Shown here piece by piece: positions 52,454 through 64,000 of a stretch of 64,000 nucleotides of DNA. The notes beneath the pieces were generated by a model. The model saw only the letters and a list, made by a program, of their open reading frames with translations. It was not told the DNA's origin and made no database searches. A program made the translations under genes and the position numbers. Each line of letters starts with the position of its first letter. Positions within the stretch are counted from its first letter, which is position 1. The DNA is from Oscillospiraceae bacterium (lineage in GTDB: Bacteria > Bacillota > Clostridia > Oscillospirales > Acutalibacteraceae), in the NCBI GenBank assembly GCA_015066595.1, contig SVNZ01000004.1, forward strand, positions 1-64,000, in the 5' to 3' direction.

Positions 52454-53767
52454 ATGAAAGCCAAAAAAATAATCAGCATACTACTTTCAGTTTTCATGCT
52501 ATTAACACCATTGTTCACTATTCCAGCTCAAGCAGCGCAAACGGATTATGTAGCTTCATTATCATCTATTCAGGCTTATCAGAACTTTCTTGATGAGCTG
52601 ATGATTGAGTACAACATCAGTGGTGTAGCCTATGTTACTCAAAACGGTCGTGTGCTGTGTCAGAGTGCAGTAGGTATGCAGAACACTATAGAAAACAAAC
52701 CAATGACCATAGATACACTGTTTCCTGTCGGCTCGATTTCAAAGCAGTTTTGTGCTACAGCGATTTTATTGTTACAGGAACAGGGCAAACTCAGTGTAAA
52801 CGATACACTTGACCAGTACTTCCCTGAATATGTCATCGGCAAAGATATAACTATTAAAAACCTGCTAACTATGCGCTCGGGTATTCGCGACTATGTAAAT
52901 ATTGATAATCAATACAAAGGACACGAAAATCCGGTCGAAGAATACACTTTATCCGATACTGCAAGCAAAGAAGAAAACCACAAGGCAATTCTTGATTGGC
53001 TTTTTACTCAGAATTTGAAATTCACTCCGGACAGAGCCTACTCCTATTCAAACTCAAATTACTTACTGCTTTCAATCATTGTAGAACAGGTATCATGTAT
53101 AAACTACACTGACTTTATTAAACAGAACATATTTTCCCCACTTAACATGACAAACTCTGGATTTTACGAAGAGCTTGTTGACTCCCCTGACTTGGCTGAA
53201 CATCATGTCCCCGATGAACTAAAACATCTTATGGACCCAACCTTCAAAGGTTTATCCCAGGGTGCAGGCGATCTTGTATCAAACTCAAAAGATATGGACA
53301 AGTGGATGACATCTTTAGCTGATGGTAAATTGCTCAGCGAAGAAAGCTTTAAAGAAATGACCACACCACAAACACCTGATTCTAATTACGTATATGGTAT
53401 AATCGCTGATTTGAAAAACGGCTCGTTATCCCACACGGGAGCTGTCGCAACATACCTTTCTGTAATGTTTACTTGTCCTGAGCAAAAGTTAAATATATTC
53501 GTCATTACCAACGACGCAGAAACATTAGTTTATGATATATTATATGCAGCACAGGATATTGCTGACATAAGCATCAAAGGCTCTATGCTGGGTGATATAG
53601 ACGGTGATGGCAAAGTAACCATCCTTGATGCAACTGCTATTCAGATGCACCTCGCAGAAATCGCTACACTTTTTAAAGAACAAATTGAGTGCGGTGATAC
53701 CGACGGCGACGGTAAACTAACGGTTCTTGATGCGACAGAAATTCAATTTTTCTTAGCAGAACTGTAA
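52454..53767 (+). CDS. Secreted serine hydrolase (class C beta-lactamase/PBP-like) with C-terminal dockerin type I
   Basis: Signal peptide; 'PVGSISKQFCATAI' (SxxK), 'YSYSNSNYLLL' (YxN), 'SHTGAVATYLS' ; C-term 'GDIDGDGKVTILDATAIQMHLAEI...GDTDGDGKLTVLDATEIQFFLAEL'. Confidence 0.92.
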   Translation: MKAKKIISILLSVFMLLTPLFTIPAQAAQTDYVASLSSIQAYQNFLDELMIEYNISGVAYVTQNGRVLCQSAVGMQNTIENKPMTIDTLFPVGSISKQFCATAILLLQEQGKLSVNDTLDQYFPEYVIGKDITIKNLLTMRSGIRDYVNIDNQYKGHENPVEEYTLSDTASKEENHKAILDWLFTQNLKFTPDRAYSYSNSNYLLLSIIVEQVSCINYTDFIKQNIFSPLNMTNSGFYEELVDSPDLAEHHVPDELKHLMDPTFKGLSQGAGDLVSNSKDMDKWMTSLADGKLLSEESFKEMTTPQTPDSNYVYGIIADLKNGSLSHTGAVATYLSVMFTCPEQKLNIFVITNDAETLVYDILYAAQDIADISIKGSMLGDIDGDGKVTILDATAIQMHLAEIATLFKEQIECGDTDGDGKLTVLDATEIQFFLAEL

Positions 53768-54479: not shown

Positions 54480-54640
54480 ATTATCACCTACATATATTAT
54501 ACTACGGTGTGTCAATATAGAAAAGAAAAGCAAATTTGTCCGTCATTTTTCACATAATAATAGCATAAACTTTGTGTAGAATTAAGTCGCAGAATATGAT
54601 AAAATGAATGTGTATATAAACTGAAAGGATGTATCCGACT

Positions 54641-54988
54641 ATGGTAATAAAAGACATAATTGACATTCTACAGGGTGAAGTCATCTGCGAAGGTGATTTA
54701 TCTCAGGAAATCAAAACCGCTTGCGGCTCAGATATGATGAGCGATGTGCTTGCATTTGTAAAAGACCAGTCTGTTCTACTCACTGGTCTTGTCAACCCAC
54801 AGGTAGTAAGAACAGCTGAAATGATGGATATGGCTTGCATCGTGTTTGTCAGAGGTAAACAGCCTGACCAGTCTATCATTGACCTTGCAAAATCCCGTGA
54901 CATCACACTTATCAAGACCCGCTTTCGAATGTTCACTGCTTGCGGACTTCTGTATAGTAACGGTCTTTCAGGAGGCTGTAACATATGA
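54641..54988 (+). CDS. DRTGG-like domain protein (copy 1)
   Basis: 'IIDILQGEVICEGDLSQEIKTACGSDMMSDVLAFV...LLTGLVNPQVVRTAEMMDMACIVFVRG'; overlaps the downstream HATPase gene by 4 nt. Confidence 0.7.
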   Translation: MVIKDIIDILQGEVICEGDLSQEIKTACGSDMMSDVLAFVKDQSVLLTGLVNPQVVRTAEMMDMACIVFVRGKQPDQSIIDLAKSRDITLIKTRFRMFTACGLLYSNGLSGGCNI

Positions 54989-55410
54989 GTGCAATTCATT
55001 TAAGATACGAAGTACCGGGCGATGATTTCACTCGTGCCGGAGAAGCAAGTGGTGCAGTAAAAAAGCGTTTAAAAGCACTTGGATACAATCCTGATGCAAT
55101 AAGACGTGTTGCTATTGCTATGTATGAAGCAGAGATAAATATGGTTATCCATGCTGAAGGCGGATACTGTGATGTAGATATCTATCCTGACAAAGTCGAA
55201 GTACTTTTAGCTGATAAGGGTCCCGGTATTCCTGACGTAGAAAAAGCTATGCAAGCAGGTTTTTCCACCGCACCTGACAACGTACGCAACTTAGGTTTCG
55301 GCGCAGGCATGGGTCTTCCTAACATCAAAAAATACACCGACGAAATGCGCATCGAAACTACACTTGGTGTAGGCACAAACCTATACCTGACTGTTAAAGT
55401 CAACGAATAA
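54985..55410 (+). CDS. Anti-sigma-factor-like ATP-binding protein (HATPase_c, SpoIIAB/RsbW-like)
   Basis: 'VAIAMYEAEINMVIHAEGG' N box, 'VLLADKGPGIPD' G1 box, 'LGFGAGMGLPNIKKYTDEMRIET' G2 box. Confidence 0.88.
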   Translation: MSAIHLRYEVPGDDFTRAGEASGAVKKRLKALGYNPDAIRRVAIAMYEAEINMVIHAEGGYCDVDIYPDKVEVLLADKGPGIPDVEKAMQAGFSTAPDNVRNLGFGAGMGLPNIKKYTDEMRIETTLGVGTNLYLTVKVNE

Positions 55411-55442
55411 AATATCTATTTTTTACATAAGAGGTGTGGAAA

Positions 55443-56720
55443 ATGCAAAAGTATTTTCACTCCGTAGAGCTCGAGGCTGACAAGTGCTGTGGTTGCACGA
55501 ACTGCCTCAAACGTTGCCCTACAGAAGCTATACGTGTTCACGATGGTAAAGCCACTATTCTTTCCGAACGCTGTATAGACTGTGGTGAATGCATCCGTAT
55601 TTGCCCTCACAGAGCAAAGAAAGCACATTCATCACAAATCGAAGAAATTGAAAATTTTAAAATCAAGGTTGCTGTACCTGCACCGGCGCTTTTCGGTCAG
55701 TTTTCTAACCTTGATGATATTGATATTGTCCTAAATGGACTTCGAGCTATCGGATTTGATTTTATCTTTGAAGTATCCCGTGCAGCGGAGCTTGTATCCG
55801 AAGTGACCAGAAAGATGATCCGCGACGGCAAGCTCAACAACAAGCCTATCATCAGCTCTGCGTGTCCGGCTGTCGTTCGACTCATCAAAATCCGTTTTCC
55901 TGATTTGTGCGATAATGTTATGCCGCTACTCGCTCCTATGGAGGTAGCAGCTCGCCTTGCTCGTGAAGAAGTCAAAAAGCAGACTGGTCTTTCTGATGAT
56001 GACATCGGTGTGTTCTTCATCACACCTTGCGCAGCAAAAGTTACAGCCATCAACTCACCGACCACAGGTGAAAAATCTGCGTGCAACGGTGCTATCGCTA
56101 TATCTAAAATTTACCCACAGCTCACTCAGGCTATGGAAAAGCTCAATGTGCTCGAGCCGATTGCTAACTCAGGTCTCATCGGTGTCGGTTGGGCAACAAG
56201 CGGTGGCGAAAGCGCTGCTATGCTCGGCGATAAGTACCTGGCTGCTGATGGTATCGAAAATGTTATTCGAGTGCTTGAAGGTCTTGAAGATGATAAAATC
56301 CGCGATGTCGATTTTGTTGAGCTCAACGCTTGTTCTGGCGGTTGTGTAGGCGGTATTTTAAATGTCGAGAATCCGTACGTTGCACAAGCTAGGATTCAAA
56401 ACCTCAGAAAATATCTGCCTGTATCTCTCAACCACTTGAGCAGTGAAGACTTGGAAGATTTTCTTTGGAAAGGTGAGCTTGAGTACGACGGTGATGGTTT
56501 TAAACTCGACGAAGATATCTTTAAAGCTATGGATAAAATGGAACAGATGGAAAAAATCTGTGCTACGCTACCTGGTCTGGACTGTGGCTCTTGCGGTGCA
56601 CCGACTTGTCGAGCTATGGCTGAAGATATCGTCAAAGGTCAAGCAAAAGAAACTGACTGTATTCACAAGCTCAAAGCTCAGATACAGTCTGTCTATGACC
56701 AGCTCAAAAATACACTTTAA
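55443..56720 (+). CDS. [FeFe]-hydrogenase-like protein (HydS-type) with 2x[4Fe-4S] ferredoxin domain and C-terminal 4Fe-4S domain
   Basis: 'DKCCGCTNCLKRCPTEAI', 'ERCIDCGECIRICPH'; divergent H-domain 'SSACPAVVRLI', 'ITPCAAKVTAI', 'ELNACSGGCVGG'; C-term 'LPGLDCGSCGAPTCRAMAEDIVKGQAKETDC'. Confidence 0.88.
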   Translation: MQKYFHSVELEADKCCGCTNCLKRCPTEAIRVHDGKATILSERCIDCGECIRICPHRAKKAHSSQIEEIENFKIKVAVPAPALFGQFSNLDDIDIVLNGLRAIGFDFIFEVSRAAELVSEVTRKMIRDGKLNNKPIISSACPAVVRLIKIRFPDLCDNVMPLLAPMEVAARLAREEVKKQTGLSDDDIGVFFITPCAAKVTAINSPTTGEKSACNGAIAISKIYPQLTQAMEKLNVLEPIANSGLIGVGWATSGGESAAMLGDKYLAADGIENVIRVLEGLEDDKIRDVDFVELNACSGGCVGGILNVENPYVAQARIQNLRKYLPVSLNHLSSEDLEDFLWKGELEYDGDGFKLDEDIFKAMDKMEQMEKICATLPGLDCGSCGAPTCRAMAEDIVKGQAKETDCIHKLKAQIQSVYDQLKNTL

Positions 56721-56732
56721 TCGGAGTTTTAT

Positions 56733-57062
56733 ATGAACGTAAAAGAAGCTATTGAAAAGCTTAACTTAAATATACTTGTAGAAGGCGATTTAGGGCGAGA
56801 TATCACTGATTGCTACATCGGCGACTTACTATCCTGGGTTATGGGAAGAGCAGGTGAAGACTCTATCTGGCTGACAGTTATGGGCAACATCAACTCTATC
56901 GCTGTAGCAACTCTTGCTGATGTTTCATGTATCGTGCTGGTTGAAAACGCCTCACTCGATGATGAAGCAAAAGCTAAAGCTTCTGCTCACGGTGTCACTA
57001 TTTTGCAATCTGAAGAAAACTCATATCACCTTGCTACTAAAATTTACGAACTGCTGAAATAA
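56733..57062 (+). CDS. DRTGG-like domain protein (copy 2)
   Basis: 'NLNILVEGDLGRDITDCYIGDLLSWVMGRA...LTVMGNINSIAVATLADVSCIVLVENA' resembles 54641-54988. Confidence 0.65.
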   Translation: MNVKEAIEKLNLNILVEGDLGRDITDCYIGDLLSWVMGRAGEDSIWLTVMGNINSIAVATLADVSCIVLVENASLDDEAKAKASAHGVTILQSEENSYHLATKIYELLK

Positions 57063-57063
57063 G

Positions 57064-57780
57064 ATGAAGTATTACTACGACTTACACCTGCATTCCTGCC
57101 TGTCGCCTTGTGGTGATATGGATATGACGCCTAACAACATAGTCGGTATGTCAAAACTTTTGGGTCTTAACATAATAGCCCTCACCGACCATAATAGTAG
57201 CCTCAACTGTGAAGCTGTGATGAAACTCGGTGAAGAAAACGGTCTGTGTGTTATTCCCGGTATGGAACTGACCACAATGGATGAAATCCACGTTGTATGC
57301 CTGTTTCCTACACTAAAAAAAGCGTTGGAATTTAACGACTATGTTAAAGAGCATCAGATGCAGTTACAAAATCGTGCAGATATCTACGGAAGACAAGTAG
57401 TTATGGACGAAAATGACAACGAAATAGACGAAGAATCTAATCTTCTGATACTAGCTACAGATATCAGTATTTCTAACATCAACGAACTGGTTAGCAGTTT
57501 TGGCGGAGTGTGTTATCCTGCACACATCAATCGTGACAGTATGTCAGTGCTTGCGGTCTTGGGTGAAATACCACCAGAGTGCGATTTTACAACAGTTGAA
57601 GTATCAAGCAGTGGCGATATCGAAAAGCTCAAAGCTATGCACCCTGTCTTAAATGATATGCTCATCGTAAAAAACAGCGATGCACATTATCTTGAGAATA
57701 TGAAAGACGCACAAAATTACTTTGAACTTGAAAAGCTGTCTGTTGAGTCTGTTTTGGAAGTTTTGAAAAATAAAAAGTAG
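57064..57780 (+). CDS. PHP domain phosphoesterase
   Basis: 'YDLHLHSCLSPCGD', 'ALTDHNSSLN', 'VIPGMELTT', 'HVVCLFP', 'YPAHINRDS', 'KNSDAHYL' metal-binding motifs. Confidence 0.92.
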   Translation: MKYYYDLHLHSCLSPCGDMDMTPNNIVGMSKLLGLNIIALTDHNSSLNCEAVMKLGEENGLCVIPGMELTTMDEIHVVCLFPTLKKALEFNDYVKEHQMQLQNRADIYGRQVVMDENDNEIDEESNLLILATDISISNINELVSSFGGVCYPAHINRDSMSVLAVLGEIPPECDFTTVEVSSSGDIEKLKAMHPVLNDMLIVKNSDAHYLENMKDAQNYFELEKLSVESVLEVLKNKK

Positions 57781-57787
57781 ATATACT

Positions 57788-57817
57788 AAGCCACCTGTAT
57801 GGTACAGGTGGCTTTTT
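57788..57817 (+). terminator. Terminator ending the HydS-like/PHP transcription unit
   Basis: AAGCCACCTGTA-TGG-TACAGGTGGCTTTTTT. Confidence 0.8.
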
Positions 57818-57965
57818 TCTTTTTTCGAATTATGATTTGTGATTTTTGTAACTTCATATAACAAGGTTTGTTGGTTAGCTTTCGCTAACTGACACAATAG
57901 ACAAAAAGTTTGATAATTTTTTGACAATTTTCTTGATTTTTAGGTCATTTTTCCTCTTTTTCGTA

Positions 57966-57994
57966 TAGACAATCACGTACTTTCATGCTATAAT
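57966..57994 (+). promoter_or_regulatory. Sigma-A-like promoter for the hydABC-like operon
   Basis: TAGACA -17 bp- TATAAT; nuoE-like ATG at 58067 with RBS aggagg. Confidence 0.6.
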
Positions 57995-58066: not shown

Positions 58067-58564
58067 ATGCAAAAGAAAATCAGTAGTATCCCGTTTTCGG
58101 GTACACCTGAGCAGGAAGCAGAGCTCAAAAAAGTCATCGAAAAACACATCGATGATCCGGGCGCAGTAATGCCTGTACTTCAGGAAGCACAGGAGATCTA
58201 CGGCTATCTTCCACAAGAGGTTCAGACCATGGTTGCTGAAGGTCTTAATGTGCCACTTGAAGAGGTTTACGGCGTATCTACTTTCTACTCACAGTTCGCT
58301 CTCTCCCCTAAGGGTAAGTACAACATCTCTGTTTGTATGGGTACAGCGTGTTATGTAAAGGGTTCAGGCGATGTTTTAGACAAGCTTTCTGAAGAACTCG
58401 GTATCGGCGCTGAAGAGTGTACTCTTGACGGTAAGTTCTCACTCACAGCTTGTCGTTGTATCGGTGCTTGCGGTCTTGCTCCGGTTATCACTATCAACGA
58501 TGATGTTTACGGTAGACTTACAGCTGATATGATTCCTGACATTCTCAAGAAATACAAGGACTAA
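58067..58564 (+). CDS. hydC: NuoE-like thioredoxin-fold [2Fe-2S] subunit (HydC)
   Basis: 'QKKISSIPFSGTPEQEAEL', 'VYGVSTFYSQFALSPKGKYNISVCMGTACYVKGSGDVLDKL', 'CRCIGACGLAPV'. Confidence 0.92.
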   Translation: MQKKISSIPFSGTPEQEAELKKVIEKHIDDPGAVMPVLQEAQEIYGYLPQEVQTMVAEGLNVPLEEVYGVSTFYSQFALSPKGKYNISVCMGTACYVKGSGDVLDKLSEELGIGAEECTLDGKFSLTACRCIGACGLAPVITINDDVYGRLTADMIPDILKKYKD

Positions 58565-58567
58565 TCT

Positions 58568-59125
58568 ATGAGAGAGTTATCTCTTAATGTTATGGACGTT
58601 GCTCAAAACTCAGTCACCGCAAAAGCGTCGCTTGTTACAATCATCGTAAAAGAAAGTGACAAAAACGACTTTCTTGATATCACTATCAAGGACAACGGTT
58701 GTGGTATGACGAAAGAGCAGGTTCAAAACGTAATTGACCCATTCTTCACTACTCGCACCACCAGAAAAGTAGGCTTGGGCGTACCGCTTTTTAAGATGGC
58801 GGCTGAACAGACAGGTGGTAGCTTTTCTATCGACTCTACACTTGATGTCGGCACAACACTTTTTGCACATTTTGTGAAATCCAGCGTTGATATGACCCCA
58901 CTTGGAGATATCAACTCTACGATCAAAATTCTCATTCAGTGTAATCCAGACATTGATTTTGTGTTTTCTCACTCTACAGACAACGGTGAGTTCACACTAT
59001 CTACAATAGAGCTCAGAGAAATTTTGGGTGAAGATGTTCCGCTCAACACTCCCGACGTGCTCGAGTGGATAGGCGGATTTTTATCAGAACAATCTAACAT
59101 TATATACGGAGGTGCTAAAAAATGA
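58568..59125 (+). CDS. Histidine-kinase-type ATPase domain protein (HATPase_c) inside the hydrogenase operon
   Basis: 'VMDVAQNSVTAKASLVTI' N box, 'IKDNGCGMTKEQVQNVIDPFFTTRTTRKVGLGVPLFKMAAEQTGGSFSI'. Confidence 0.88.
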   Translation: MRELSLNVMDVAQNSVTAKASLVTIIVKESDKNDFLDITIKDNGCGMTKEQVQNVIDPFFTTRTTRKVGLGVPLFKMAAEQTGGSFSIDSTLDVGTTLFAHFVKSSVDMTPLGDINSTIKILIQCNPDIDFVFSHSTDNGEFTLSTIELREILGEDVPLNTPDVLEWIGGFLSEQSNIIYGGAKK

Positions 59126-59490
59126 AATCTTTAGCTGAATTACAGGCAATCAGAGACAAAGCGAAGCTCGAGCTCAATATGAGACAAGAGAATCCTAACG
59201 CTATCCGTGTTCTGGTTGGTATGGCTACATGCGGTATTGCTGCTGGCGCTCGTCCAGTGCTCAACGCATTCACAGAAGAAATTGCAAAGCGCAATTTGCA
59301 GGATGTTACTATCACACAGACAGGTTGTATCGGTATCTGTCAGTTTGAGCCTGTTGTTGAAATCGAAATTCCGGGCGAGGACAAAGTAACATACGTTAAA
59401 ATGACACCTGAAAAGGTTGCTAAGGTCGTAAACGACCATATCGTAAACAGAAACGTAGTTACCGAGTACACTATCGGTGCTTACAAATAA
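59122..59490 (+). CDS. (2Fe-2S) ferredoxin domain protein (thioredoxin-like)
   Basis: 'RVLVGMATCGIAAGARPVLNAFTEEI', 'TQTGCIGICQFEPVVEIEI'. Confidence 0.92.
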   Translation: MKSLAELQAIRDKAKLELNMRQENPNAIRVLVGMATCGIAAGARPVLNAFTEEIAKRNLQDVTITQTGCIGICQFEPVVEIEIPGEDKVTYVKMTPEKVAKVVNDHIVNRNVVTEYTIGAYK

Positions 59491-59506: not shown

Positions 59507-61315
59507 ATGTATCGTTCTAATGTGCTTGTTTGCGGCGGTACCGGATGTACCTCCTCAGACAGTTTAAAAATCGTCGAGAAGCTCAAGGAAGAAATCGCAG
59601 CTCGCGGTTTGGAAAATGAAGTAAACGTTATCACAACAGGTTGCTTCGGTCTTTGTGCTCTCGGTCCAATCGTAGTTATCTACCCAGAGGGTAGCTTCTA
59701 CTCAATGGTTAAAATCGAAGATATCCCTGAAATCGTTGAAGAGCATCTCTTGAAGGGTAGAATCGTAACAAGACTTCTCTATCAGGAGACTGTAGAAGAA
59801 GACACTATCAAATCACTTAACAAAACTGCTTTCTATGCTAAGCAGCAGCGTATCGCACTTCGTAACTGTGGTGTTATCGATCCAGAGAAGATTGATGAAT
59901 ACATCGCTATGGATGGTTACGCAGCTCTTGGTAAAGTATTGACAGAAATGAAACCTGAAGAGGTTATCGAAACAGTTCTTGCTTCAGGCTTACGCGGTCG
60001 TGGCGGTGCAGGCTTCCCTACAGGTCTTAAATGGAAGTTTGCTGCAGCGAACGATGCTGATCAAAAATATGTTTGCTGTAACGCTGACGAAGGTGACCCA
60101 GGTGCATTCATGGACCGTTCAATCCTCGAGGGTGACCCACACGCACTGCTCGAAGCTATGGCTATCGCTGGTTATGCTATCGGCGCTACAAAAGGTTATG
60201 TATATGTTCGTGCTGAGTACCCTATCGCTGTTAATCGTCTTCAAATAGCTATCGATCAGGCTCACGAGTACGGACTACTCGGTGACAACATCTTCGGCAC
60301 AGACTTCTGCTTTGACATTCAGCTTCGTCTTGGTGCAGGTGCTTTCGTATGTGGTGAGGAAACATCTCTCATGACATCTATCGAAGGCAAGCGTGGCGAA
60401 CCACGTCCACGTCCACCATTCCCAGCTGTTAAGGGTCTTTACAAAAAGCCAACTATCTTAAACAACGTTGAAACATACGCTAACATCCCACGTATCATCT
60501 TACTAGGTGCTGACTGGTTCAACACAATTGGTACTGAAAAGAGTAAGGGTACTAAGGTATTCGCTCTTGGTGGTAAGATTGAACACACAGGTCTTGTTGA
60601 AGTACCTATGGGTACTACACTCAGAGAAATCGTTGAGGAAATCGGTGGCGGTATTCCAAACGGCAGAAAGTTCAAGGCAGCTCAGACAGGTGGTCCATCA
60701 GGCGGATGTATCCCTCCACAGCACCTTGATATTCCTATCGACTACGACAACCTCCTCGAAATCGGCTCAATGATGGGCTCAGGCGGTCTCATCGTTATGG
60801 ACGATACAACCTGTATGGTTGATATCGCTAAGTTCTTCTTAGAGTTCACTGTTGATGAGTCTTGCGGTAAGTGTACACCTTGTCGTATCGGTACAAAGAG
60901 ACTTCTCGAAATGCTCGACAAGATCACTAAGGGTCAGGGTACTCTTGAGATGATCGACGAGATGGAAGAGCTCTGTCACTATATCAAAGCAAACTCTCTG
61001 TGTGGTCTTGGCCAGACAGCTCCAAACCCTGTACTCTCCACTCTCAACTACTTCCGTGATGAATATGTTCAGCACGTAGTTGACAAGAAGTGTGTAGCAG
61101 GCGTTTGTAAGGACCTCCTCGAGTTCTCAATCATCAAAGACAAGTGCTTCGGTTGTTCTATGTGTGCTAGACAGTGTCCGGCTGGTGCTATCACTGTTAC
61201 AGACTACATAGCTCCAGGCAAGAAGAAACCAGCTTACGAAATCGATACAACTAAGTGCGTTAAGTGCGGTGCTTGTATCCCAACATGTAAGTTCGGTGCT
61301 ATCATCAAAGGCTAA
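59507..61315 (+). CDS. hydB: NuoF-like flavoprotein subunit of NAD(H)-dependent [FeFe] hydrogenase (HydB)
   Basis: 'GLRGRGGAGFPTGLKWKFA', 'CNADEGDPGAFMDRSILEGDPH', 'SCGKCTPCRIGTKR', C-term 2x[4Fe-4S] 'CFGCSMCARQCPAGAI', 'CVKCGACIPTCKFGAI'. Confidence 0.95.
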   Translation: MYRSNVLVCGGTGCTSSDSLKIVEKLKEEIAARGLENEVNVITTGCFGLCALGPIVVIYPEGSFYSMVKIEDIPEIVEEHLLKGRIVTRLLYQETVEEDTIKSLNKTAFYAKQQRIALRNCGVIDPEKIDEYIAMDGYAALGKVLTEMKPEEVIETVLASGLRGRGGAGFPTGLKWKFAAANDADQKYVCCNADEGDPGAFMDRSILEGDPHALLEAMAIAGYAIGATKGYVYVRAEYPIAVNRLQIAIDQAHEYGLLGDNIFGTDFCFDIQLRLGAGAFVCGEETSLMTSIEGKRGEPRPRPPFPAVKGLYKKPTILNNVETYANIPRIILLGADWFNTIGTEKSKGTKVFALGGKIEHTGLVEVPMGTTLREIVEEIGGGIPNGRKFKAAQTGGPSGGCIPPQHLDIPIDYDNLLEIGSMMGSGGLIVMDDTTCMVDIAKFFLEFTVDESCGKCTPCRIGTKRLLEMLDKITKGQGTLEMIDEMEELCHYIKANSLCGLGQTAPNPVLSTLNYFRDEYVQHVVDKKCVAGVCKDLLEFSIIKDKCFGCSMCARQCPAGAITVTDYIAPGKKKPAYEIDTTKCVKCGACIPTCKFGAIIKG

Positions 61316-61332: not shown

Positions 61333-63072
61333 ATGGAAATGCTTAATATTAAAATCAACGGTATGCCTTTCTCTGTTGAGAAAAACACTACTATCCTTGA
61401 AGCATGCCACCAGTTCGGTATCAAGATTCCTACTCTGTGCTACCTCAAGGACATCAACGAAATCGGCGCATGCCGTATGTGTCTTTGTGAAGTAAAGGGC
61501 GCTAGATCATTAGTTGCTGCTTGTGTATATCCTATCGATAGAGAGGGTACAGAAATCTTCACAAACACACCACAGATTCAGAAATACAGAAAGACTACTC
61601 TTGAACTTATCGTTTCTAACCACGATAAAAAATGTCTGTCTTGCCCACGTTCTAATTCATGTGAGCTCCAGAAGCTCTGTATGGAATACGGAGTAGAAGA
61701 GACAAAGTTCTCTGGCGAAGAGACAAAGTACGAGGAAGATACAACAACACTTCACCTTGTTCGTAACAACAACAAGTGTATTCTTTGCCGTAGATGTTCT
61801 GCTGCTTGTAAGAACCAGTACGTTGGCGTTATCGGCGCTAATAACCGTGGTTTTGACACAGAAATCGGTTGTGCATTCAACCAGACACTCGACCAGGTTG
61901 CTTGTGTAGCTTGTGGTCAGTGTACTGCGGTTTGTCCTACAGGTGCTCTTATTGAGCGTGACGATACAGCAGAAGTTTTCAACGCTATCGCTGATCCTAC
62001 AAAGACTGTTATCGTTCACACAGCTCCATCTATCCGTGCAACTCTTGGTGAGTGCTTTGATATGCCTATCGGCACAAATGTTACTGGCAAAATGGTTGCA
62101 GCTCTCCGTCGTCTTGGCTTTGACAAAGTATTCGATACTAACTTCGCTGCTGACCTTACAATTATGGAAGAAGGCACAGAGTTCTTAGACAGAGTGAAGA
62201 ACGGTGGCACACTCCCAATGATCACTTCATGTTCACCGGGTTGGATCAAGTTCTGCGAGCACTACTATCCAGAACTCATTCCTAACCTCTCAACATGTAA
62301 ATCACCACAGCAGATGCAGGGTGCTATGATTAAATCATACTATGCTGAGAAGATGGGCATTGATCCTAAGGATATGGTAGTAGTTGCTATCATGCCTTGT
62401 GTTGCTAAAAAGTTTGAAATCAAGCGTGACGACCAGGGTCACGATGGTATCGCTGATAATGATTTTGTTCTCTCAACAAGAGAGCTCGCTAAGATGATCA
62501 AGACTGCCGGTATCCAGTTCACAGATTTACCTGACGAAGAGTTCGATCCTATCATGGGTATCGGTTCAGGTGCAGGTACTATCTTCGGCACTACAGGCGG
62601 TGTTATGGAAGCTGCTCTTAGAACAGTTGCTGACATACTCACAGGCGAGGATCTTGAGCACATTGAGTACACAGACGTTCGTGGTATGGACGACATCAAG
62701 GAAGCTACATATGACGTTGCCGGCATGCAGGTTAAGGTTGCTGTTACATCAGGCCTTTCTAACGCTGCTAAGCTCCTCGACAAGGTTAAAGCTGGCGAAG
62801 CTGACTACCAGTTCATCGAGGTTATGTGCTGTCCTGGCGGTTGTATCAACGGTGGCGGTCAGCCTATCGTTGACGGTCATACAAGAAACTTCGTTGACGT
62901 CAAGGGCCTTCGTGCTGCTGCTCTGTATGATGATGACAAAAATCTCACATACAGAAAGTCACACAAGAACCCTGAGATCACAGCTATCTACGAGGATTAC
63001 CTCGGCGAGCCTGGTTCGCACAAGGCTCACGAACTCTTACATACATCTTATGTAAAGAGACCAAAGTATTGA
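61333..63072 (+). CDS. hydA: NADH-dependent [FeFe] hydrogenase catalytic subunit (HydA)
   Basis: N-term [2Fe-2S], His-ligated and 2x[4Fe-4S] clusters; H-cluster motifs 'ITSCSPGWIKFCE', 'IMPCVAKKFEIKR', 'EVMCCPGGCINGGGQP'. Confidence 0.95.
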   Translation: MEMLNIKINGMPFSVEKNTTILEACHQFGIKIPTLCYLKDINEIGACRMCLCEVKGARSLVAACVYPIDREGTEIFTNTPQIQKYRKTTLELIVSNHDKKCLSCPRSNSCELQKLCMEYGVEETKFSGEETKYEEDTTTLHLVRNNNKCILCRRCSAACKNQYVGVIGANNRGFDTEIGCAFNQTLDQVACVACGQCTAVCPTGALIERDDTAEVFNAIADPTKTVIVHTAPSIRATLGECFDMPIGTNVTGKMVAALRRLGFDKVFDTNFAADLTIMEEGTEFLDRVKNGGTLPMITSCSPGWIKFCEHYYPELIPNLSTCKSPQQMQGAMIKSYYAEKMGIDPKDMVVVAIMPCVAKKFEIKRDDQGHDGIADNDFVLSTRELAKMIKTAGIQFTDLPDEEFDPIMGIGSGAGTIFGTTGGVMEAALRTVADILTGEDLEHIEYTDVRGMDDIKEATYDVAGMQVKVAVTSGLSNAAKLLDKVKAGEADYQFIEVMCCPGGCINGGGQPIVDGHTRNFVDVKGLRAAALYDDDKNLTYRKSHKNPEITAIYEDYLGEPGSHKAHELLHTSYVKRPKY

Positions 63073-63140: not shown

Positions 63141-64000
63141 TTACAGTTCTGGAATGAGCTCTGCAAGCAGGCGTTGAATCTGGGTTGCGTCCAAAATAGT
63201 GACTTTTCCGTCTTTGTATGTATCCGCACGAACAAGCTGTTCTCCTGTGAGAATTTCAATCTCTGCGAGATGACGCTGAATACATGTTGCATCAACAACT
63301 CTGACTTTTCCGTCAGAGTCAACATCGCCTAACATAACAAGTATAGGTATAATCTCTTGTTCAACAAGTACCTTGTCGCATACAGAACAATGTAAACCGT
63401 CTGTCAGCCCTTCTTTTTCATAAGTTGCCTCATAACCTTTGTCAACAACTTCTGTGTGTCCTGTAACAGGAAGCGTTTCTGTATATGTATCACCACACGT
63501 TGAACATGTGTATGTTTTTGTTCCATTTGCTATGCAGGATGGAGTATTAGTAATTTCAGAAACATAGCAGTGCCCTGATAAATATCCTTCTTTAGGCTCG
63601 TCTACAATTTCAAAATAAACTCTTTTCGTATCAGTTGTATCATAGTGATTGTAGAGTGTAAAATATGCAGAGTATTTACCAACACCTAACTTTGAAGCAG
63701 GGATTGTATAAGTATTGTTACAATCTTCACTAATAACTTTTTCTATATTATTCTTATCAATACCTATAGCTTGTCCATGAGCACAGATAGGAGATACTGT
63801 TATAGTTACTGTATCATTTAAATCATACCAACATTTATCCGATTTCACCTCTGTATATGATGGTTTTCCAACAATAGAAAAGGTGATCCATTTTGTATCA
63901 ACCTTATGCGAGCTATTGTAAACGGTAAAATAGGCTGAATATTCACCAACTCCAAGTCTCTTATCAGATGCAGATATCGTAAATGTTGAATCACAATCTT
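63141..64000 (-). CDS. Dockerin type I protein with tandem ~91-aa repeats (5' end truncated by window edge)
   Basis: C-term 'GDVDSDGKVRVVDATCIQRHLAEI...DTYKDGKVTILDATQIQRLLAEL'; frame stays open to position 64000 on the minus strand (reads DCDSTFTISASDKRLGVGEYSAYFTVYNSSHKVDTKWITFSIVGKPSYTE then VKSDKCWY...), so the ORF-track GTG start at 63848 is internal. Confidence 0.88.
   Translation of the reverse strand, partial: DCDSTFTISASDKRLGVGEYSAYFTVYNSSHKVDTKWITFSIVGKPSYTEVKSDKCWYDLNDTVTITVSPICAHGQAIGIDKNNIEKVISEDCNNTYTIPASKLGVGKYSAYFTLYNHYDTTDTKRVYFEIVDEPKEGYLSGHCYVSEITNTPSCIANGTKTYTCSTCGDTYTETLPVTGHTEVVDKGYEATYEKEGLTDGLHCSVCDKVLVEQEIIPILVMLGDVDSDGKVRVVDATCIQRHLAEIEILTGEQLVRADTYKDGKVTILDATQIQRLLAELIPEL

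Follow-up and report, generated by a model that had tools for sequence, protein, structure and literature searches.

Comparison of Clostridia genomes showed D1, K1, HydS, D2, PHP and K2 (Table 1) to be a conserved set of genes, encoding two small DRTGG-domain proteins, two GHKL ATPases, a putative sensory [FeFe]-hydrogenase and a predicted PHP-family phosphoesterase. From the conserved residues and gene neighbourhoods, we infer a GHKL kinase-DRTGG-PHP phospho-switch that acts on NAD/ferredoxin complexes under the control of a sensor of H2/redox (or adenylates), a reading to which we assign a probability of roughly 55%.

In the window (the whole stretch of DNA that was analysed, 64,000 nucleotides), the five ORFs from D1 to PHP (54641-57780) were all confirmed and are closely spaced on one strand. 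The tight packing given in the preliminary description of this DNA holds, including the 4-nt overlap (ATGA) between the end of D1 and the start of K1. The start of D1 was placed at the ATG at 54641, where the homologue alignment begins; an alternative in-frame ATG lies at 54629. The same description had named two DRTGG proteins, an anti-sigma-type ATPase, a PHP protein with intact metal motifs and a hydABC-like set downstream, and these assignments agreed with passed Pfam cut-offs, conserved PHP ligands and a HydA score above the group A6 cut-off. K2, a member of the same conserved set, was not mentioned there. NuoE, the small [2Fe-2S] protein and HydB share a domain and were told apart by sequence length and later profiles. 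The host of the locus is a ruminant-gut Ruminococcus-like bacterium.

Table 1. Genes and sites of the module and the adjoining hydABC set, with positions in the window.
Feature	Positions	Strand	Basis
D1, small DRTGG-domain protein (115 aa)	54641..54988	+	Pfam DRTGG, AF2 model, fold match
K1, SpoIIAB/RsbW-like GHKL ATPase, putative Ser/Thr kinase	54985..55410	+	Pfam HATPase_c_2, profile matches
HydS, group D/M2e putative sensory [FeFe]-hydrogenase	55443..56720	+	Pfam, residue positions, invariant columns
D2, second DRTGG-domain protein (109 aa)	56733..57062	+	Pfam DRTGG
PHP, predicted PHP-family metal-dependent phosphoesterase (238 aa)	57064..57780	+	Pfam PHP, metal ligands
Rho-independent terminator	57788..57814	+	12-bp stem and T-run, folding energy
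Rex-operator-like palindrome TTGATAATTTTTTGACAA, 2 mismatches, upstream of hydABC	57910..57927	+	cross-locus enrichment
Sigma-70-type promoter-like site, extended -10, TAGACA-17-TATAAT	57966..57994	+	11/12 matches
NuoE/HydC-like [2Fe-2S] subunit	58067..58564	+	Pfam 2Fe-2S_thioredx, 178 bits
K2, second GHKL ATPase, own C-terminal region of ~80 aa	58568..59125	+	Pfam, profiles
Small [2Fe-2S] protein, HydD-like	59122..59490	+	Pfam
HydB, NuoF-like FMN/NADH subunit	59507..61315	+	Pfam, profile search
HydA, NADH-dependent bifurcating [FeFe]-hydrogenase, group A6	61333..63072	+	NF040763, 888 bits vs cut-off 765

The five-gene arrangement is far from chance. Among 245 Clostridia genomes, HydS and D1 occurred together in 115 and apart in only 4 (115/2/2/126; p~1e-65), and the corresponding counts for HydS and PHP were 113/4/1/127; across 300 genomes of the phylum, the module co-occurrence table was 107/9/13/171. 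D1, K1 and D2 each recurred in 90-92 of the 94 loci, nearly always in the same gene order; in some lineages the module sits inside the hydABC set, between NuoE and K2. The module was present in about half of the sampled Clostridia genomes, and conservation of the neighbourhood across this class, on which the preliminary description had made its proposal depend, is thus strong. Exceptions were also observed. Five loci, from lineages in which the locus is otherwise similar, had no PHP, and five loci of one family had no D1, so that neither is universally required, and five further modules adjoined neither hydABC nor Rnf. Beyond close relatives, a single-sequence search of genome contigs returned just a few Peptococcaceae-type loci. 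Protein distance correlations were modest (D1-K1 0.33, D2-PHP 0.37 and HydS-HydA 0.47, partial) and, being dominated by shared ancestry, were given no weight.

HydS passed the Pfam cut-off for Fe_hyd_lg_C (104.5 vs 22.1 bits) and also contained the C-terminal FeS domain. Its layout consists of two N-terminal [4Fe-4S] sites, an H-domain and a C-terminal Cx2Cx4Cx16C cluster (C381, C384, C389 and C406), and the H-cluster cysteines of motifs L1, L2 and L3 (C141, C196, C297 and C301) were invariant in 32 homologues. In the study of TamHydS from Thermoanaerobacter mathranii, group D is defined by Ala at CpI C299 and Ser/Thr at M353 (PMC8163306); HydS has Ala (SSA140CP) and Thr (T194PC196) at these positions. 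Residue assignments thus show HydS to be a group D (M2e) [FeFe]-hydrogenase with the full set of H-cluster ligands. It shares with TamHydS the domain layout, the C-terminal cluster motif, the Ala at C299, a hydroxyl residue at M353 and a gene context that places it, together with a histidine-kinase-like ATPase, upstream of bifurcating hydABC. S253, E256, D269 and E293 are spaced as the group D proton path (S249, E252, D265 and E289 in TamHydS; PMC10407848), a match of sequence motif only, whereas the M497 position is Asn here and Leu in TamHydS. Group C (M2f) sensory hydrogenases (R. albus HydS, TmHydS and HfsB) resemble HydS in being sensor-type [FeFe]-hydrogenases with a C-terminal Fe-S cluster and links to other hydrogenases and signalling genes, but they contain a PAS domain, which a Pfam scan did not find in HydS. 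Group C identity was ruled out on this ground and because identity to the next group of hydrogenases is only ~30%. The divergent, putatively sensory hydrogenase of the preliminary description is therefore real, but it is not a new type: earlier papers already propose group D as sensory and note its location near a kinase and hydABC (PMC8163306, PMC3561251). The accessible parts of the TamHydS papers mention no DRTGG or PHP partners, fusions or CBS variants (PMC8163306, PMC10407848, PMC13104023).

D1 and D2 passed the Pfam DRTGG cut-off (PF07085; 34.5 and 27.2 bits, respectively, vs 25.2), although the literal DRTGG signature is absent from both (SDMMSDVL...LLTGL in D1 and GDLLSWVM...WLTVM in D2). 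The AF2 model of D1 (pLDDT 92.6) was nearest in fold to the DRTGG structure 2ioj (TM 0.83) and also matched the DRTGG domain of CBS-pyrophosphatase (3l2b/3l31). Both proteins contain a D31-x-x-S34 motif, whose Ser34 was conserved in all 90 D1 homologues and all 88 D2 homologues and lies, in the D1 model, at the start of helix 33-39. K1 passed the curated cut-off for HATPase_c_2, matched SpoIIAB (1e-11) and RsbW (9e-5) profiles, and shares with these anti-sigma-factor kinases the GHKL fold, the E-x-x-x-N box and the D-x-G-x-G and G-x-G-L motifs; its catalytic E48 and its N52 (N box) align with SpoIIAB and were invariant among homologues. The invariant Glu/Asn pair together with an invariant Ser34 at a helix start supports a SpoIIAB-like phospho-switch. 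K1 nevertheless scored well under the cut-off of the SpoIIAB equivalog family (spIIAB; 52.5 vs 135 bits) and, unlike SpoIIAB and RsbW, is associated with two DRTGG proteins and a hydrogenase, with no STAS antagonist or sigma-factor gene at the locus. The sole STAS protein found in the genome is part of an intact spoIIAA-spoIIAB-sigF operon, which leaves K1 without an obvious spare STAS partner; the same separate operon rules out K1 as the sporulation anti-sigma factor.

PHP scored 32.1 bits (curated cut-off 26.4), and its metal ligands H8, H10, H43, E68, H76, H154, D206 and H208 were invariant or >90% conserved in 33 homologues, with a P-C-G-D stretch in place of the usual Asp after HxH. Its orthologues were found almost only in module-carrying genomes. 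The C-terminal region of K2 gave no convincing separate match in the PDB. The order NuoE-K2-F2-HydB-HydA at this locus is presumably that of Acetobacterium woodii hydCEDBA, in which case K2 would correspond to HydE; K2 differs from this comparison in also accompanying the module at Rnf loci.

The genes of the set are also physically joined in nature. We found D1-K1 fusions in five genomes of two families and at one further locus, PHP-K2 fusions at two loci, and HydS-D2 and K1-HydS fusions at one locus each; for one example of each kind, Pfam confirmed both halves. At four loci, HydS was absent and a CBS pair was fused to K1, and a Rex gene lay near HydS-less forms at three loci. An Rnf operon followed PHP or K2 at four loci, and relocated K1-HydS pairs stood beside response-regulator, histidine-kinase or CheW genes at two. 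These genomic arrangements show a constant chassis with two exchangeable positions, a sensor (HydS, or a CBS pair fused to K1) and a target (hydABC or Rnf). Two points of the preliminary description need amending in this light, as hydABC is only one of the targets and the input may be something other than H2. No description of the fixed partners, fusions or sensor swap was found in the papers searched, and an earlier account of DRTGG/PHP neighbours elsewhere is possible.

As for transcription, the five-gene unit is closed by a strong terminator hairpin (12-bp stem, T-run, -19.2 kcal/mol, z -5.13), and a separate promoter-like site lies between this hairpin and hydABC. The preliminary description mentions neither feature; together they make a single module-hydABC operon unlikely in this genome. 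In other lineages, the module and hydABC follow one continuous order. Rex is encoded in the genome, and the Rex-like site, although not significant within the window alone (11 matches vs 9 expected), recurred at the hydABC promoter of 19 of 44 loci (0.5 in shuffled sequences) vs 4 of 64 module promoters. Transcription of hydABC therefore looks Rex-controlled, which favours control of activity by the module. The preliminary description had left expression and activity open; the former now appears less likely and the latter more so.

Three other explanations were weighed against the phospho-switch. The module could carry a nucleotide signal with no protein phosphorylation: adenine nucleotides or diadenosine polyphosphates would be ligands of the DRTGG proteins, as part of a CBS-DRTGG unit, with K1 and K2 as ATP-state switches and PHP hydrolysing the nucleotide. 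In CBS-pyrophosphatase, AMP, ADP, ATP and Ap4A regulate a unit of two CBS domains and one DRTGG domain (PMC10742508); the module shares this DRTGG fold, has CBS pairs on K1 beside D1 in some copies, and includes a PHP protein whose structurally known relatives comprise nucleotide and nucleic-acid phosphoesterases. Nucleotide binding in that enzyme is, however, ascribed to the CBS pair and not to DRTGG (PMC10742508), most module copies are without CBS, and K1 retains the SpoIIAB kinase-type Glu, more than an ATP site. We consider this explanation rather unlikely. The module also differs from CBS-pyrophosphatase in its DRTGG proteins, which are free-standing or fused to the kinase-like ATPase or HydS instead of a pyrophosphatase.

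It is less probable again that K1 sequesters a sigma or other transcription factor, which the redox state of HydS would free to shift hydABC expression. The resemblance of K1 to anti-sigma kinases and the response-regulator genes beside K1-HydS in one family fit such transcriptional partner switching, but sigma, STAS and DNA-binding genes are absent from the conserved set, the STAS protein of the genome sits in the spoIIA operon, and Rex-type operators mark the hydABC promoter. HydS might instead be an accessory hydrogenase that serves HydABC or Rnf in catalysis or electron transfer, with the small proteins as assembly or chaperone factors. TamHydS turns over H2 in both directions (PMC8163306), all cluster ligands are conserved in HydS, HydG is encoded in the genome, and some lineages have the module nested among the hydABC genes. 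Against this role, many hydA6 genomes are without the module (205 with hydA6 vs 117 with HydS), the chassis persists without HydS, and in one genome K1 is largely gone, HydS is reduced to half and PHP is frameshifted while hydABC remains intact, as expected for a dispensable regulator. We regard it as the least probable of the three.

Under the preferred phospho-switch, the five genes and K2 would form a cytoplasmic signalling complex. HydS would quite likely read H2/redox at its H-cluster and change the state of K1; against this, TamHydS is a working bidirectional catalyst, and its C-terminal cluster keeps the same oxidation state under H2 (PMC13104023). More tentatively, K1 may phosphorylate D1 and/or D2 at Ser34, with DRTGG replacing STAS in the partner-switching cycle, although this invariant Ser could instead be a ligand-binding or structural residue, and, with similar reserve, the phosphate or nucleotide signal may be removed by PHP coupled to K2. 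D2 or K2 might then act directly on the neighbouring NADH/ferredoxin enzyme, matching the activity of that enzyme to H2 and energy status, with transcription set by Rex, a step that we hold to be possible but still short of even odds. Taken as a whole, the scheme would be STAS-independent partner switching: a SpoIIAB-type kinase would phosphorylate DRTGG acceptors, a PHP phosphatase working with a second GHKL ATPase would reset them, and an exchangeable sensor, either HydS for H2 or CBS for adenylates, would govern the activity of bifurcating hydrogenase or Rnf across a large part of Clostridia. This is a speculative proposal that we consider doubtful in its full form.

The TamHydS paper raises the question of how a signal is transduced when no PAS domain is present (PMC8163306). 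The likely signalling partners of group D are indicated by the near-obligate neighbours, natural fusions and HydS/CBS exchange, and the natural K1-HydS, D1-K1 and PHP-K2 fusions are ready single-chain constructs. The module probably serves to adjust the enzymes with which the cell handles hydrogen and NADH. Gut fermenters feeding H2 to methanogens are among its carriers, and it may set the H2 back-pressure response of gut and industrial fermenters.

The preliminary description of five tightly packed genes upstream of a hydABC-like set was borne out in the window for the position, common direction and packing of all five ORFs. Pfam assigned D1 and D2 to DRTGG, K1 to the GHKL ATPases, and the last gene to PHP; in HydS it recognised an [FeFe]-hydrogenase H-domain preceded by ferredoxin sites at the N-terminus and followed by a C-terminal FeS domain. 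Downstream lay, in order, a NuoE-like gene, a second GHKL ATPase (K2), a small 2Fe-2S protein, HydB and HydA. HydA scored above the family cut-off for NADH-dependent group A6 hydrogenases. Because a strong terminator (12-bp stem, z −5.1) followed PHP and a good promoter-like site preceded NuoE, the five module genes probably form a unit separate from hydABC in this genome. The source assembly (1.73 Mb, 15 contigs) contained two [FeFe]-hydrogenase genes, HydG, Rex, no DRTGG genes other than D1 and D2, and, elsewhere, an intact spoIIAA-spoIIAB-sigF operon. The closest named loci (82–96% identity) were mostly from ruminant Ruminococcus MAGs.

Coordinates of the features discussed (window positions unless a locus, L, in another genome is named)
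Feature	Position	Strand	Remark
Module (D1, K1, HydS, D2, PHP)	54641-57780
K2	58568-59125		within hydABC gene set
Cys beside D-x-x-S, D1 position 28	around 54722
Cys beside D-x-x-S, D2 position 30	around 56820
Flanking protein	52454-53767	+	beside the hydrogenase region; dockerin-like repeats at end and beta-lactamase-type serine hydrolase look, both read by eye
Flanking protein	63141-63848	-	other side of the hydrogenase region; dockerin-like repeats at end, read by eye
Module, K2, redox protein, molybdoenzyme	L112:1482-4433 and L113:4443-4847
Joint decay of K1, HydS, PHP	L173:7000-8900		hydABC intact
H-domain/chemotaxis protein	L191:4839-6779	-	647 aa

HydS is a new member of an already published subclass, group D. 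All four H-cluster cysteines were present and invariant across 32 homologues, and HydS shared the features named for TamHydS, including Ala and Thr in place of CpI C299 and M353, respectively, the proton path S253/E256/D269/E293, and a C-terminal Cx2Cx4Cx16C cluster (PMC8163306, PMC10407848). Pfam detected no PAS domain in HydS, in agreement with the group D definition, and identity dropped from at least 40% among orthologues to ~30% for the next hydrogenase group. The proximity of a kinase and bifurcating hydABC to this subclass has already been published (PMC3561251, PMC8163306, PMC3608648).

Among 245 genomes spread evenly over Clostridia, HydS-D (117), D1 (117) and the PHP orthologue (114) nearly always occurred in the same genomes (HydS-D1 table, 115/2/2/126; HydS-PHP table, 113/4/1/127), and HydS lay at a contig end in at least some discordant genomes. 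A whole-phylum sample of 300 genomes gave 107/9/13/171. D1, K1 and D2 accompanied 90, 92 and 90 of 94 HydS loci, respectively, in unchanged order. In several families NuoE precedes D1, and thus the module is embedded within the hydABC gene order. Group A6 HydA was more widespread (205/245 genomes); the module is therefore accessory rather than essential to it. One family (L192–L196) lacked D1, with K1 also missing beside some HydS-D copies, and several members carried two HydS-D copies per genome.

Neighbouring module genes were also found fused into single ORFs in other genomes, namely D1-K1 (L150–L154, in two families, and L202), K1-HydS (L201, 635 aa), HydS-D2 (L183, 579 aa), and PHP-K2 (L159 and L182), with both halves confirmed by Pfam in L150, L182, L183 and L201. 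Since the D1-K1 fusion occurred in five genomes, an assembly error is unlikely; the other fusions were each seen in one or two genomes. Rnf genes followed PHP or K2 at L110, L111, L132 and L166, and K2 stayed with the module at the first three. Both this linkage and the PHP-K2 fusion count in favour of K2 being a module member, despite its place in the hydABC operon in the window. In one family (L095–L099), putative pyrK, pyrD and pyrE, as judged from sequence, took the place of hydABC 3' of PHP. Elsewhere (L112 and L113), the genes after the module encoded K2, a C_GCAxxG_C_C redox protein, and a xanthine-dehydrogenase-like molybdoenzyme.

The input side varied as well. At L161, L162 and L197, the order was D1, CBS-CBS-K1, D2, PHP and K2, without HydS, and hydABC followed at L197; at L160, D1 and CBS-K1 preceded an Rnf operon. 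L181 held both CBS-K1 and HydS, and thus the two inputs can coexist. Rex lay near some HydS-less forms (L176, L177 and L188). In one family (L190 and L191), a relocated K1-HydS adjoined response-regulator, histidine-kinase or CheW genes. L191 also encodes, near K1-HydS and CheW, a candidate H2 chemoreceptor in which an [FeFe]-hydrogenase H-domain is joined to a methyl-accepting chemotaxis signalling domain.

The best profile match of K1 was SpoIIAB (1e-11), followed by RsbW, and its E48 and N52 were invariant and aligned with SpoIIAB. The D1 model (pLDDT 92.6) had the DRTGG fold, matching 2ioj (TM 0.83), the CBS-pyrophosphatase DRTGG domain, and the HPr kinase N-domain. The motif D31-x-x-S34 is common to D1 and D2, and its Ser was present in every aligned sequence of each (90/90 and 88/88, respectively). 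S34 lies at a helix start in the D1 model and is not conserved in the alignment with 2ioj. It is thus a candidate phospho-acceptor, but could equally be a ligand-binding residue. Cys often adjoins this motif (41/91 aligned sequences at D2 position 30). The PHP metal ligands were kept. Rex-type operators with at most two mismatches were enriched between PHP and NuoE (19/44 vs 0.5 by shuffling) and much less so upstream of D1 (4/64 vs 0.4), a pattern favouring a scheme in which Rex would control hydABC transcription and the module would tune activity.

At L173, whose genome is one contig, the D1-K1 gene lacked most of K1, HydS was frameshifted and had lost its first 257 residues, and PHP was frameshifted; NuoE, K2, the 2Fe-2S protein, HydB and HydA were kept at 65–94% identity to a relative. 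This single case is what regulator loss would look like. Among the open-access papers searched, none brought DRTGG, PHP and hydrogenase together, and one unrelated paper contained both DRTGG and hydrogenase. Overall, the locus combines a putative sensor that was already known with a modular signalling chassis that appears to be undescribed.
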